64,000 bases of DNA, taken from contig OX387184.1 of the NCBI GenBank assembly GCA_947561395.2, forward strand, positions 10,520,205-10,584,204, written 5' to 3'. The DNA is from Buxus sempervirens. Taxonomy: Eukaryota; Streptophyta; Magnoliopsida; Buxales; Buxaceae. Made by a program: the position numbers and the translations under genes. Within the stretch, counting starts at the first letter, position 1. Every line of letters begins with the position of its first letter. The notes under the pieces were generated by a model that was not told the DNA's origin, did no database searches, and saw only the letters and a list, made by a program, of their open reading frames with translations. Below, piece by piece: positions 2,078-7,307 of the stretch.

Positions 2078-2852
2078 CAACCGATTTCGTCTCCGACGGT
2101 TCCTCCTACGGAACGTCCTACGTGCGTCCAGCGGGCGACACGCGTCCTCGCTCCCCTCCCTCTTATTTCGAACGGCAACGGCCTTCCGACCTCTCTTCCG
2201 TTACTTTTTTGAAGCCGTCCCGCGTCGTTCGAACCGGCTCGAACGTGATTACGAAACCTCGCCCATTTCAAAAATCCCTCCACCCATTTCACCTTCGCCA
2301 TTTTCGCTCGAACGTGATTCTAAAATCCCCCAAAATTTCAAAAAGCCCTCTCCCATTTCACCTCTGCCATTTTCATCTCCTGTGCGCATTGAACTGCAGG
2401 AGGGGACAGACGACGGAGAGATGTCATCTCTCACAGAAGATGAAAATGGCAGAGGTGCGCGAACAGCTCGAAGCACGTATAGAATCCCGTTGCCTCGTTC
2501 AACATCTCCTTGCGCCTTTTCAAAACCTAGTTCCCGACCTGGTATCCTCCCTCGATCTCTCTCTCAAGGTCATCTCTGCTTTCAATGGCCGCGAATATAC
2601 TCCCATCCAAGTCCCTCACTCTAACCCTAACAGCAACCCAAAAAATCCTCCGGAAAGCCTTCCATTCACACCGGAAAACCGCCCTAGACGATTCTCTGTC
2701 GAGCCTAAGACCACTCTGTCGAAGAGCAGTAACCGAAGAGCAGTAACCGGAGACCCTCACCCGATGCGGCTACAGGTCTTCGACCTGATCCCCAGAAATC
2801 GCCCATTGATGGGAGTGGAAGTCCATTATCCATTGTTCGAACAATGGTCGCT
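2078..2852 (+). repeat. MULE A left terminal inverted repeat
   Basis: It begins CAACCGATTTCGTCTCCGAC and matches the reverse complement of 6501-7307 throughout. Differences include a 14-bp tandem duplication here (GAAGAGCAGTAACC twice, near 2716-2745) that is single in the right arm. A perfect 18-bp palindrome, CCATTGTTCGAACAATGG, lies at its inner edge (2830-2847). Confidence 0.9.
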
Positions 2853-2925
2853 GTCTGCCTTTTGGAAAGGGTACCCTTCAAGCGATCAAAATCTGAGAAA
2901 TCCTGCAAAGCATGAGGTCTTCTAA
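2440..2925 (+). other. ORF carried inside the MULE A TIR (origin unknown)
   Basis: From the ATG at 2440 an open frame begins MKMAEVREQLEARIESRC and continues through LVQHLLAPFQNLVPDLVSSL into a Pro/Asn/Ser-rich stretch, ending beyond the TIR. The mirror copy lies in the right TIR on the minus strand, but its frame differs at the 14-bp duplication, so only about the first 95 residues are shared. The leading helical segment loosely resembles the N-terminus of group III WRKY factors, with no WRKYGQK or zinc finger. It may be a captured exon that became part of the TIR, or a chance ORF. Confidence 0.3.
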
Positions 2926-3171
2926 AACCCCAGTAAGTAACTTTTGATTATTTCAACTTTCTTTGAGTCATTTTTAGTCGCCCAATCTAAAACGATGAGA
3001 TGGAGAAAAATATGGAAGAAATTGATAAATGGGTCTTTTGTTTTGGTTCGTATTAGGGAGATATCAAAGATAATTTGTTTCTCTTATGGAAATATAAATG
3101 GGGTTCCGTTGTCTTTTCCATTTTTACTTAGGGTTTTACTGATTGATGATTTGGAACTCTGTTTGCAGGCG

Positions 3172-3243
3172 GTTATCAATTATGGTGCATCTTGGTATGT
3201 CATGGCTTCTCAGACCCTCCTAATCTTTTACATTTTCTCTTGA
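3172..3243 (+). pseudogene. Thioredoxin-like fragment (TRX-like 3-3 type), degenerate
   Basis: Right after a plausible 3' splice site (TTTGCAG) the frame reads AVINYGASWYVMASQTLL. Plant thioredoxin-like 3-3 proteins have an exon starting with VVINYGASWC followed by the second active-site cysteine. Here the first cysteine is Tyr and the second appears to be Ala, so no redox centre would remain. The match is one short exon only and could be coincidental. Its placement among other captured fragments makes capture plausible. Confidence 0.4.
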
Positions 3244-4460
3244 GGAGTCAATTTAGATGAATATTAGTTCTCCTTTAATGTACTCTTTTGTAATATAGAT
3301 TTGTTAGGGAGCTTATGGTGGAGAAAATGGTATAATGAACTTGCTAGTTGCATCCAAGAGATGGGGACCAATGAATCCCGGCAATATTGTCCTGTTTAGT
3401 AATCCATTTTTTCAGAAGCCTGGAGGGATAACTTGGTTTGGTGTGGAAAAAAATATAGGAACAGAAGGTGCTCGATGTGGCAACTTTGAGAGCATTAGAT
3501 GGTTGATATATAAATTTTAGATTTATATGGGTATTCTAGTTAAAAGATCGTTCCTTTTTTTTTTCTAAGAAGCATTGGTGATAATAGATGCACATGGAAA
3601 CAAGCTACAATGTTTATGGCTAATTTTATTAGTGCCAGGGGTATTTAACTCTTGAATCTGAATTAGGCTCTGTCTGGATGAGATTAGAAGAGTAGGTTTC
3701 TATTCAGCTAAACTTTAGTTCAGGGGACACTGTCAATCAAGATTGGTTCTGGCAATCTGGATTTATTTTGACATCGATCCAATTTTCTGTATTAGTCTCT
3801 AGAAACTATCGGGAAACTTAGTATCATCATTAACCATAACTAGGTGTAACGGATGTGTAAAATCATGGTACATGAGAGGCATGTTTCAATTTAGGACTTT
3901 AGTGGCTAATAATTATGAAAATTTTCTCACAGTTGTTTTTGGCATGGGAATTAGTGACTCCTGATCGATAAGGGACTTCCTATGTTAAAGTTGTATTCTT
4001 TATGATATACAAAAATCTTATTCTCCAATGAAAATTTTCTTTTATAGTGCTGCGATTATGAAAAATCTCATGATATATTGCTATGCTGTCCTATTATTCT
4101 AATAGGCTTTATTCTCCAATGAACTCTAAGCAATATATCATAACTCAAATGTTGCTCAAACACTGCACTCGTTACATACTCCCTGTTTCCTGGTATTGCA
4201 TTCATGGTACTTTTTTTTCTTATGCCTGCATAGAAGAAATGCTAGTGAGTGGTCCATCAGAAGTAGAAATTGTAAAAATAACTAGATTTATGAAGTACAA
4301 ATTTGACAGCAAGTTGCAGGACTTTGATGTTAAACACTCCAAATTTCAGTAGATTTTATATAAAATTGTGATGTTTCTTGGTTGCTCTTTGGGCTTTTAT
4401 TCTTGAGGATTTTAAATTTCAGTAGATTTTAACATCATTCATCTGACCTCTATGTTTTAG

Positions 4461-5002: not shown

Positions 5003-5540
5003 TATCTCTCATTGCCGATAGTCTTCTACAACCTCACTAAGAATGAGCAACAGGGGCTTATAGCTCTTGAGATCCTGCCTTATGATGATATTATCATTCT
5101 CAATTTGACTGAGAAAATTAACTCCAGCAAAAGTTGCACATACTTCTCTTCCCTCCCACAGAACCTCCTATGCCATTACAATTATGTTATGAAGGCTGAC
5201 GACGATGATTTCTTTAAGATGTGCTCAGTTGGCTTTGTCTCTCAGGCCATTGCCCAGAACAGACCTGTAATATGGCCTTGTCGTCTCTTGAAATAGCCAA
5301 AACCCTTTTGTGGAATGCATGTCTTGGAAAGGCGTTAAATGGATTGGGAAATCTGGTATACCAGAAATTGACATACAGGGACCAGAGGATAAATTGGTCG
5401 GAAAATGGTTGAGGAAGGCAAATAAGGAACGAAGGTGCTCACACAAGTTTATACCAGATACCATAGTGGTTCACCGTCTCAAAAAGATGGGATCATCGGC
5501 TGCAATGTGTTAATAATTTACAACGTTACCAAGGAGCTTA
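5003..5540 (+). pseudogene. Captured GT31 glycosyltransferase fragment
   Basis: The first part, about 5012-5295, reads VFYNLTKNEQQGLIALEILP, DDIIILNLTE, YFSSLP and VMKADDDDFF. This is the core of GT31 beta-1,3-galactosyltransferases, with the acidic metal-binding motif preserved. The second part, about 5310-5540 in another frame, reads MSWKGVKWIGKSGIPEID, GPEDKLVGKWL, HKFIPDTIVVHRLKK and, past a stop, YNVTKELK. These are the C-terminal family motifs, including the GPED block. The MSGMG-type segment between them is largely missing. With a frame break and stops no full enzyme can be made. It lies on the same strand as the FKBP13 piece, about 300 bases downstream. Confidence 0.75.
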
Positions 5541-6053
5541 AGAACACCAATCTCTACCATATCTTATCGAATCAGACTTAAAAACCTGTTATATTCATCG
5601 TTCTCATTAGCAGGTCTCAACTTGAGAATCACAGTTTTCATTTAAATTATAACTGTACTAGTTTTTATTTTTCCTACTAAGCTGTATCGATTATTTTCTA
5701 TAATGCAAATTGGAGAACATATTTAAGATATTACGATCTGGACAGCCAGACCGGGAATTAGTTTTTTCCAGTTCTATCTCAGCTTCATTCTCCAGTAGAA
5801 ACTCTTCCTAACAAAAGTTCTTAGAAGGGACACTTGTCTGCTTTGTTTGCATAACATATTTATTCACAGGAAGCTCTCGCAAGACCACACTCATGAACAA
5901 AATTTAACACCATTAACTACAATATCTCTACATTAATATTACAAGTAATAACTTACAACAGATTAGGAGGAATTGATGGGAATGGAAGGCTTCCAATTGT
6001 AGATACAATTTTGAACTACTTAAAATTATAGCAAGAGATAGTTCAAAAGTATA

Positions 6054-6371
6054 TCAGATCCATTCCTTTGGGTTAATGCATGCATCTAATAATTTCCATT
6101 CTTCACTGCCCTCTTCAGGTTGCTGGTAACAGATCACAAGCAAAGGGAGAAATAAGGGTCAGAAAATTGTTCCTCATTCATAAATTTTTTTTTTCTTGTT
6201 TCACCAAGTTCACATATTTTAAAACTATAAAAGGGGGTGGGGAGAAAAATGATCAAATGGTTAAAAGCTTACATGATCATATTCCCATCTTGCAGTTAGT
6301 GGGAGAGAAACAAGAATACTCTCAATTCGGCCACCAATCTTCAGTCCAAATGTTGTACCACGATCATATAC
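6054..6371 (-). pseudogene. Captured 3' end of coproporphyrinogen III oxidase gene
   Basis: On the minus strand, exon 6273-6371 reads [20 protein letters not shown] then [13 protein letters not shown] and ends at a GTAAGC donor. Exon 6054-6122 follows TTACCAG and reads [20 protein letters not shown] then WI and stop. This is the highly conserved C-terminus of plant coproporphyrinogen III oxidase (HEMF/CPX1, plastid heme and chlorophyll pathway), joined in frame across the retained intron. About 55 residues remain. It runs opposite to the FKBP13 and GT31 pieces, so a transcript from the left TIR would carry it as antisense. Confidence 0.9.
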
Positions 6372-6500
6372 CTTCAAATTCCACAACGATAACTGGTTAA
6401 GAAAACCAAATTCAAAAATCAATAAAACTCATCTTAGTTCTTTATTCAATAATACATGCAATACCAAGTTGAACTCAACATAGCGTCCCCTCCGCAACAT

Positions 6501-7307
6501 AGCGACCATTGTTCGAACAATGGATAATGGACTTCCACTCCCATCAATGGGCGATTTCTGGGGATCAGGTCGAAGACCTGTAGCCGCATTGGGTGAGGGT
6601 CTCCGGTTACTGCTCTTCGACAGAGTGGTCTTAGGCTCGACAGAGAATCGTCTAGGGCGGTTTTCCGGTGTGAATGGAAGGCTTTCCGGAGGATTTTTTG
6701 GGTTGCTGTTAGGGTTAGAGTGAGGGACTTGGATGGGAGTATATTCGCGGCCATTGAAAGCAGAGATGACCTTGAGAGAGAGATCGAGGGAGGATACCAG
6801 GTCGGGAACTAGGTTTTGAAAAGGCGCAAGGAGATGTTGAACGAGGCAACGGGATTCTATACGTGCTTCGAGCTGTTCGCGCACCTCTGCCATTTTCATC
6901 TTCTGTGAGAGATGACATCTCTCCGTCGTCTGTCCCCTCCTGCAGTTCAATGCGCACAGGAGATGAAAATGGCAGAGGTGAAATGGAAGAGAGGGGTTTT
7001 TGAAATTTTGGGGGATTTTAAAATCACGTTCGAGCGAAAATGGCGAAGGTGAAATGGGTGGAGGGATTTTTGAAATGGGGAAATGGCGAAGGTGAAATGG
7101 GTGGAGGGATTTTTGAAATGGGCGAGGTTTCGTAATCACGTTCGAGCCGGCTCGAACGACGCGGGACGGCTTCGAAAAAGTAACGGAAGAGAGGTCGGAA
7201 GGCCGTTGCCGTTCGAAATATAAGAGAGGGGGAGCGAGGACGCGTGTCGCACGTTGGGCGTACGTAGGACGCTCCGCAGGAGGAACCGTCGGAGACGAAA
7301 TCGGTTG
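6501..7307 (-). repeat. MULE A right terminal inverted repeat
   Basis: Reverse complement of 2078-2852, ending at CGGTTG next to the target duplication at 7308-7316. It is longer than the left arm mainly because of a tandem duplication of about 43 bases (GGCGAAGGTGAAATGGGTGG twice, near 7040-7125). The 18-bp palindrome is at 6506-6523. Confidence 0.9.

Follow-up and report, generated by a model that had tools for sequence, protein, structure and literature searches.

Structure and gene content of the element

We analysed a 64,000-nucleotide stretch of the Buxus sempervirens genome (the window; C4:10520205-10584204), in which positions 2078-7307 are occupied by a mobile element that carries pieces of host genes. 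Its first bases are CAACCGATTTCGTCT at 2078 and its last bases are AGACGAAATCGGTTG at 7307. A perfect 9-bp target-site duplication, CTTAGGAGG, flanks it at 2069-2077 and 7308-7316, and both ends consist of long terminal inverted repeats (TIRs), of 775 bp on the left (2078-2852, plus strand) and of 807 bp on the right (6501-7307, minus strand). A shorter duplication of 7-8 bp was rejected because a copy of the element on C21 has the ends CAACCG...CGGTTG and a duplication of 9 bp. The inner part of the left TIR consists of sequence from exon 1 of the host gene MTA. The two arms differ at 9 of the outer 100 aligned sites, at 4 of the next 200 and at 1 of the inner 461, with 60 gap columns in addition; thus, the inner arms were probably homogenised later than the outermost bases.

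Relatives were sought in the 676.5-Mb assembly, which comprises 247 contigs. The left arm gave at least 45 matches (40 of 70 candidates were scored), and nine further loci with paired ends were fetched. For one of these, L049, the stretch fetched stopped short of the ends, and this locus was not included when duplications were counted. A perfect 9-bp duplication was found in eight of the ten copies with both ends readable, including L047, for which the right end was moved two bases outward; the duplication of L044 had one mismatch, and none was readable for L051. The TIRs of L047 (C4:20.99 Mb) are related to those of the element, with matches of 75% and 79%, and an open stretch between them contains a MULE transposase domain (PF10551, E-value 2.7e-29; found in at least one of the nine relatives fetched). 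When the L047 transposase open reading frame (ORF) was used as the single tblastn query, no match was found in 2078-7307. A further relative, L044 129-8790 (C15:23.01 Mb), has TIRs of 1.9 kb (93%) and a Transposase_32 match below the curated cut-off.

Target-site duplications of Pack-MULEs are about 9 bp long, and both this length and long TIRs were found at 2078-7307. A table in PMC3310237 gives 9-10 bp. The TIRs, the 9-bp duplications and the relative with a transposase domain establish the element as Mutator-like. It is a Pack-MULE, a non-autonomous Mutator-like element (MULE) with host gene fragments, as the preliminary description of this DNA had proposed. Helitrons have neither TIRs nor target-site duplications, and a Helitron with gene fragments was rejected because both are present. 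An Rfam search returned 0 matches.

The element contains five gene pieces from three donor loci, on C4, C1 and C19, all of which were found elsewhere in the same genome. Long matches of 92-98% over aligned bases at several loci exclude chance. The outermost piece is a fragment of exon 1 of MTA, a METTL3-type N6-methyladenosine (m6A) methyltransferase gene, and it is present in both arms, at 2390-2880 (plus strand), where a 14-bp duplication breaks the frame, and at 6501-6949 (minus strand), where the frame is kept. The donor lies at C19:1.890 Mb, and the left-arm fragment matches it at 91% including gaps. The identity of the gene was based on an MT-A70 domain (E-value 8.1e-16) downstream in the same locus and on the exon-1 sequence, which we take to be that of plant MTA. 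Exon 1 itself had no Pfam match, and the best hit of a PDB search with the MTA N-terminus was not meaningful (E-value 0.82).

The next piece, at 2876-4019 (plus strand), comprises the end of exon 1 (to 2932), intron 1, exon 2 (3169-3194) and part of intron 2 of a thioredoxin-like gene, presumably TRXL3-3. Its donor, at C1:63.449 Mb, has a thioredoxin domain (Pfam E-value 3.2e-8) and adjoins a SAM synthetase gene. Two parts of the piece match the donor at 92.8% and 93.1% over aligned bases, and 3619-3730 had no match in this locus. The adjacent stretch at 4036-4414 (plus strand) is a piece of a coproporphyrinogen III oxidase (CPOX) intron in the sense orientation of CPOX. Of its bases that align with positions 3799-4220 of L028, the locus fetched from C4:59.98 Mb, 98.2% are identical, and the alignment contains 43 gap positions. 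This match ruled out its assignment to a TRXL3-3 intron or to a small transposon.

The largest part of the element, 4430-6498, is an unbroken copy, in the plus orientation, of C4:59985148-59987204 (L028 6705-4649), which extends from the 3' end of FKBP13 through a relict of a GT31 galactosyltransferase gene to the 3' end of CPOX. Of 2009 aligned sites, 95.4% are identical, and a further 108 columns are gaps; with gaps counted, BLAST gives 90.6%. The CPOX intron piece stems from the same C4 locus and has the opposite orientation. FKBP13 is represented by exon 4 (4461-4529, plus strand) and by the coding part of exon 5 with its stop codon (4640-4704, plus strand). Together, the two exons match PDB entry 1u79, which we take to be FKBP13 (listed there as FKBP-type isomerase 3), with an E-value of 5.8e-19. 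For the host gene, a spliced sequence of 125 amino acids matches the same entry with an E-value of 6.5e-72; its exons were delimited by eye, and the check covered the mature part, not the transit peptide.

The GT31 relict (5021-5563, plus strand) is broken and 5'-truncated, and of all gene labels in the element it is the weakest. It was delimited by tblastn with a GT31-like frame at C8:49.24 Mb, which is open over 294 codons and has a partial match (E-value 1.5e-11) to Pfam Galactosyl_T, presumably equivalent to GT31. The element matches this frame in three pieces at 55-80% (E-value 3e-56), and its own Pfam match (E-value 0.0042) is below the curated cut-off. CPOX is antisense in the element and is represented by the last exon with its stop codon (6054-6122, minus strand), the penultimate exon (6273-6371, minus strand) and the 3'-terminal 34 bp of the preceding exon (6465-6498, minus strand). 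One exon gave a match to PF01218 (E-value 1.5e-13). Nine matches to this family were found in the genome, six at C4:59.98 Mb, one in the element and two in the sister copy on C21. The two stop codons within the matches at C4:59.98 Mb are located in introns.

At the host locus, CPOX lies on the plus strand and FKBP13 on the minus strand, tail to tail, with the GT31 relict between their 3' ends; judged against the C8 frame, this relict was already 5'-truncated. The stretch is contiguous over 2.07 kb and has the same gene order and orientation as the element. The possibility that C4:59.98 Mb is itself an older Pack-MULE holding these pieces was ruled out by the distribution of CPOX family matches and by the exons of FKBP13, which identify it as the host locus, and no inverted repeats of at least 25 bases were found in the 9.9 kb fetched there. 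The element thus copied one host neighbourhood and not three separately chosen genes. The adjacency of FKBP13, GT31 and CPOX in the host explains their combination in the element, and the convergence of the host genes accounts for the antisense orientation of CPOX.

A second copy of FKBP13/GT31 sequence was observed at C11:30.27 Mb (L030 3912-7581). It spans 1181 bp at 98.6% and lies between 45-bp inverted repeats (84%) that begin with GGCCTCGTTTGG and have TAA outside both ends. It is perhaps a Harbinger-type element that picked up sequence at the same place in the host.

These results bear on several claims of the preliminary description. The identities of FKBP13, GT31 and antisense CPOX were upheld by PDB, Pfam and tblastn matches and by the donor loci in the same genome, and the tentatively named thioredoxin-like exon is real. 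Capture from genomic DNA was also borne out, since the introns of the element match the introns of the donors. Several gene pieces are indeed present, but the count of three or four unrelated genes gave way to five pieces from three loci. FKBP13, GT31 and CPOX, which had been regarded as separately chosen, lie side by side in the host. Two features had been overlooked, namely the MTA exon that both TIRs contain and the reading direction from the right TIR, which puts CPOX in sense orientation and in the frame of MTA.

Sister copies and the order of capture

A complete sister copy is located at C21:12339056-12343488 and is flanked by a 9-bp duplication of its own, CCCCGCAGG. It contains MTA, TRXL3-3 pieces on both sides, and sequence of the C4 locus that reaches further into CPOX than in the window. 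That C4 sequence has a gap of about 160 bp and includes less of FKBP13. The same mosaic is thus present in a rearranged form. This second complete copy with its own duplication indicates that the composite is mobile. Other repeats interrupt a copy on C14, which shares its deletion junction (3472 to 4643) with the copy on C21. At C19:6.34 Mb, a fragment (L029 4110-6821) has an identity of 98.2% over aligned bases, contains both of the locally copied junction stretches described below and is split by a 1.1-kb insertion; no TIR match was found in the 9.9 kb fetched at this site. At C14:9.06 Mb (L034 374-9900), a fragment of the sister copy is enclosed by an inverted repeat with 99.9% identity that extends over 4.4 kb or more (to the end of the fetched stretch) and may be due to nested insertions or to an assembly artefact.

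A smaller relative at C12:28.708 Mb has a single MTA piece, flanked by arms of about 300 bp (90.7%). It has the same junction between TIR and MTA, and its MTA sequence extends past the breakpoint of the larger elements; therefore, it did not arise from them by deletion. Together, the sister copy, the two partial copies and this MTA-only relative point to stepwise growth with MTA first. At 18 of 418 MTA sites, the copies in the window, on C21 and on C12 agree with one another against the host. The simplest history would be a single capture of MTA, after which the composite was formed.

The relationship of the two complete copies was analysed by comparing their C4 blocks with the host. At 75 sites both elements differ jointly from the host, and 10 and 20 differences are private to the window and to C21, respectively. 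The shared sites were polarised with the C8 GT31 frame (620 sites), which assigned 19 changes to the elements and 13 to the host, and with an FKBP13 paralogue at C19:9.98 Mb (278 sites), which assigned 2 to the elements and 6 to the host. In total, 21 changes common to the elements and 19 host changes were obtained among the shared sites checked. The 21 shared changes support common descent of the block in the window and in C21, and the junction between MTA and TRXL3-3 is also common to both. About 20 bases of GT31 are kept in the window and in C21 and are absent from the host and from the C11 copy; the residues that they encode have counterparts in the C8 frame. Because these bases were lost in the host and kept in the elements, the capture most likely predates the host deletion, and the element would reflect an older host allele.

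Junctions and the mechanism of capture

Three junctions between the pieces retain traces of their formation. MTA and TRXL3-3 share a microhomology of five bases, CTTCA, at 2876-2880. Between TRXL3-3 and the CPOX intron, the 15-base stretch TTATTCTCCAATGAA (4018-4032, plus strand) is identical to 4109-4123, 91 bp downstream, and between the CPOX intron and FKBP13, the 18-base stretch AAATTTCAGTAGATTTTA (4414-4431, plus strand) is identical to 4341-4358, 73 bp upstream. In a first-order Markov control, none of 2000 sequences reached 15 bases, and the longest repeat was 13 bases. A further local copy was found in the arms, where the start of MTA has given way to a 26-bp inverted copy of TIR positions 2359-2384, at 2432-2457 and again at 6882-6907, which created a new ATG. 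This inverted copy occurs in both arms of the window copy and in none of the four other aligned copies (both C21 arms, the left C14 arm and C12). Such a distribution suggests that the sequence of one arm was copied over that of the other.

In our view, the Pack-MULE very probably grew stepwise as DNA of three host loci was copied into it, after which it moved as one unit. The MTA exon-1 piece would have been acquired first, followed by the TRXL3-3 intron region and the FKBP13-GT31-CPOX block, in either order. Acquisition may have occurred by repair DNA synthesis with template switching, because introns were retained, one junction has a 5-base microhomology and two contain stretches copied from nearby. 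MTA would have become part of both TIRs when the arms were homogenised from each other. The transposase might be supplied in trans by a relative like that at C4:20.99 Mb, and the cargo would be mainly passive.

That the genes were captured in separate events as three or four unrelated genes is extremely improbable. TRXL3-3 on C1 and MTA on C19 are indeed distinct donors, but in the host FKBP13, GT31 and CPOX form one continuous stretch with the gene order and orientation of the element. Separate captures would require the C4 locus to be an insertion, and no inverted repeat of at least 25 bases was found in the 9.9 kb fetched there. We give next to no credence to separate insertions of two TIR sequences into an old host locus. 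This reading accords with the presence of introns and with nothing further, whereas a single 9-bp duplication flanks the whole, the donors lie elsewhere, and a rearranged form of the mosaic, with another 9-bp duplication, is found on C21. The two objections that the preliminary description had raised against itself, a lack of parent genes with matching introns and an old locus of this kind, thus fall away. A more serious alternative, which we consider possible but rather doubtful, is that the pieces of the same element were joined by polymerase-theta-type end joining of fragments and not by template switching. Polymerase-theta end joining can leave templated stretches, typically with microhomology, and both were observed here. 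However, the pieces are copies whose donors are still in place, and the CPOX intron piece is opposite to the rest of the block, as in strand-switching synthesis. Snap-back and local copying fit template-switching DNA synthesis, which we favour over end joining.

Several observations weigh against the stepwise growth by template switching proposed here. The copied stretches fit polymerase-theta end joining equally well, and the right junction between CPOX and MTA is without clear homology, the link being one to two bases. Composite copies are complete in only two cases, as the C14 copy is interrupted with its left end alone seen and the C19:6.34 Mb fragment is without recognised TIRs. An appreciable part of the 75 shared sites are host changes. 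The junctions of the C4 block differ between the window and C21, in which the block is arranged differently, and there may have been a second capture from the same C4 host locus. Only 4 of the 418 MTA sites join the window and C21 against C12 and the host, with 11 private differences in the window, 14 in C12 and 2 in C21. Lastly, the transposase-like frame of L047 is interrupted by stop codons, so that its product is at most a candidate transposase.

Elements of this kind are already known, and the useful part is the resolved history. The element resembles the Pack-MULEs of rice and other plants (Jiang et al. 2004, via PMC13317346) in its Mutator-type TIRs, target duplication and host gene fragments, but differs from them in that three of the five pieces form one neighbourhood block and in that an apparent growth intermediate is present in the same genome. 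In the tomato PM-ZIBP Pack-MULEs with tandem TIRs (PMC3310237), added sequence also alters the TIRs; there, the TIR is duplicated, whereas here, a host exon is embedded in it. Animal multicopy Pack-TIRs such as fly Ssk-FB4 (PMC8277862) share breakpoint microhomology and inserted bases, followed by amplification, while the present case is a plant MULE with several donors and with junction stretches copied from nearby captured DNA. The same paper proposed a model of replication stalling and template switching for animals and, in 2021, deemed a test on plant Pack-MULEs worth exploring; PMC3310237 stated in 2012 that the mechanism of gene acquisition by Pack-MULEs was yet to be understood. According to PMC4858842, several parents are usual for MULE-derived genes. 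Because the donors of five pieces, an apparent intermediate and sister copies are found in one genome, the steps and junctions can be followed at single-base resolution. In addition, what looks like "unrelated genes in one element" may prove to be a set of neighbours captured jointly, and the linkage of donors should be checked before captures are counted or a preference is inferred.

Possible effects and surroundings of the element

A spliced chimeric frame of 200 amino acids is predicted on the minus strand at 6054-6899 (6899-6465, 6371-6273 and 6122-6054). It runs leftwards from the right arm and joins MTA to CPOX, which is in sense orientation and uses its own splice positions and its own stop codon. 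The last 66 residues (134-199) match Pfam CPOX with an E-value of 1.3e-29. In spite of these features, it is very unlikely indeed that a transcript from the right TIR is spliced into a functional, translated MTA-CPOX protein, and that the element thus constitutes a new gene. The chance of an in-frame joining is one in three, an out-of-frame ATG lies upstream, and a 41-bp deletion in C21 and C14 breaks the MTA frame. The proportions of nonsynonymous and synonymous differences between MTA and its host counterpart (pN 0.039 and pS 0.073) comprise too few changes and give no clear sign of constraint.

The element has 21-mers in common with its parents, namely 289 with the MTA exon-1 ORF, 534 with the CPOX gene span including introns and 194 with the TRXL3-3 stretch, so that small RNAs from it could reach the parent genes. 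Captured sequences can serve as reservoirs of small RNAs that silence donor genes, according to a review (PMC13317346). The likeliest effect of the element, if transcribed, would be small RNAs against MTA and CPOX. MTA exon 1 forms an inverted repeat through both TIRs and is exactly identical to MTA over up to 122 bases; hence, a read-through transcript would be a hairpin from which small RNAs against the m6A writer could arise. This inverted repeat would provide a concrete, testable link to the silencing of an RNA-modification gene. It is nevertheless very unlikely that the element feeds back on the m6A machinery of the host both by hairpin small RNAs against MTA and by an MTA-CPOX protein that would compete for the WTAP partner. 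In animals, the N-terminal leader helix of METTL3 binds WTAP (PMC8865655), and by analogy, plant MTA may behave equivalently.

The surroundings of the element contain a small cysteine-rich open frame on the minus strand at 1715-2002, which had no Pfam match. Its first ATG, at 1909, is 169 bp from the left end of the element, which may therefore sit in the promoter of this frame. Just outside the right end, a 26-bp inverted repeat (92%; 7433-7458 and 7692-7717) and a perfect 28-bp tandem duplication (7581-7636) were observed; the repeats at 7433-7717 are perhaps a small transposon. A FAR1 DNA-binding domain (E-value 3.1e-21) is encoded at 14857-15516 (plus strand), 7.5 kb from the element. Domains of this kind are related to MULE transposases.

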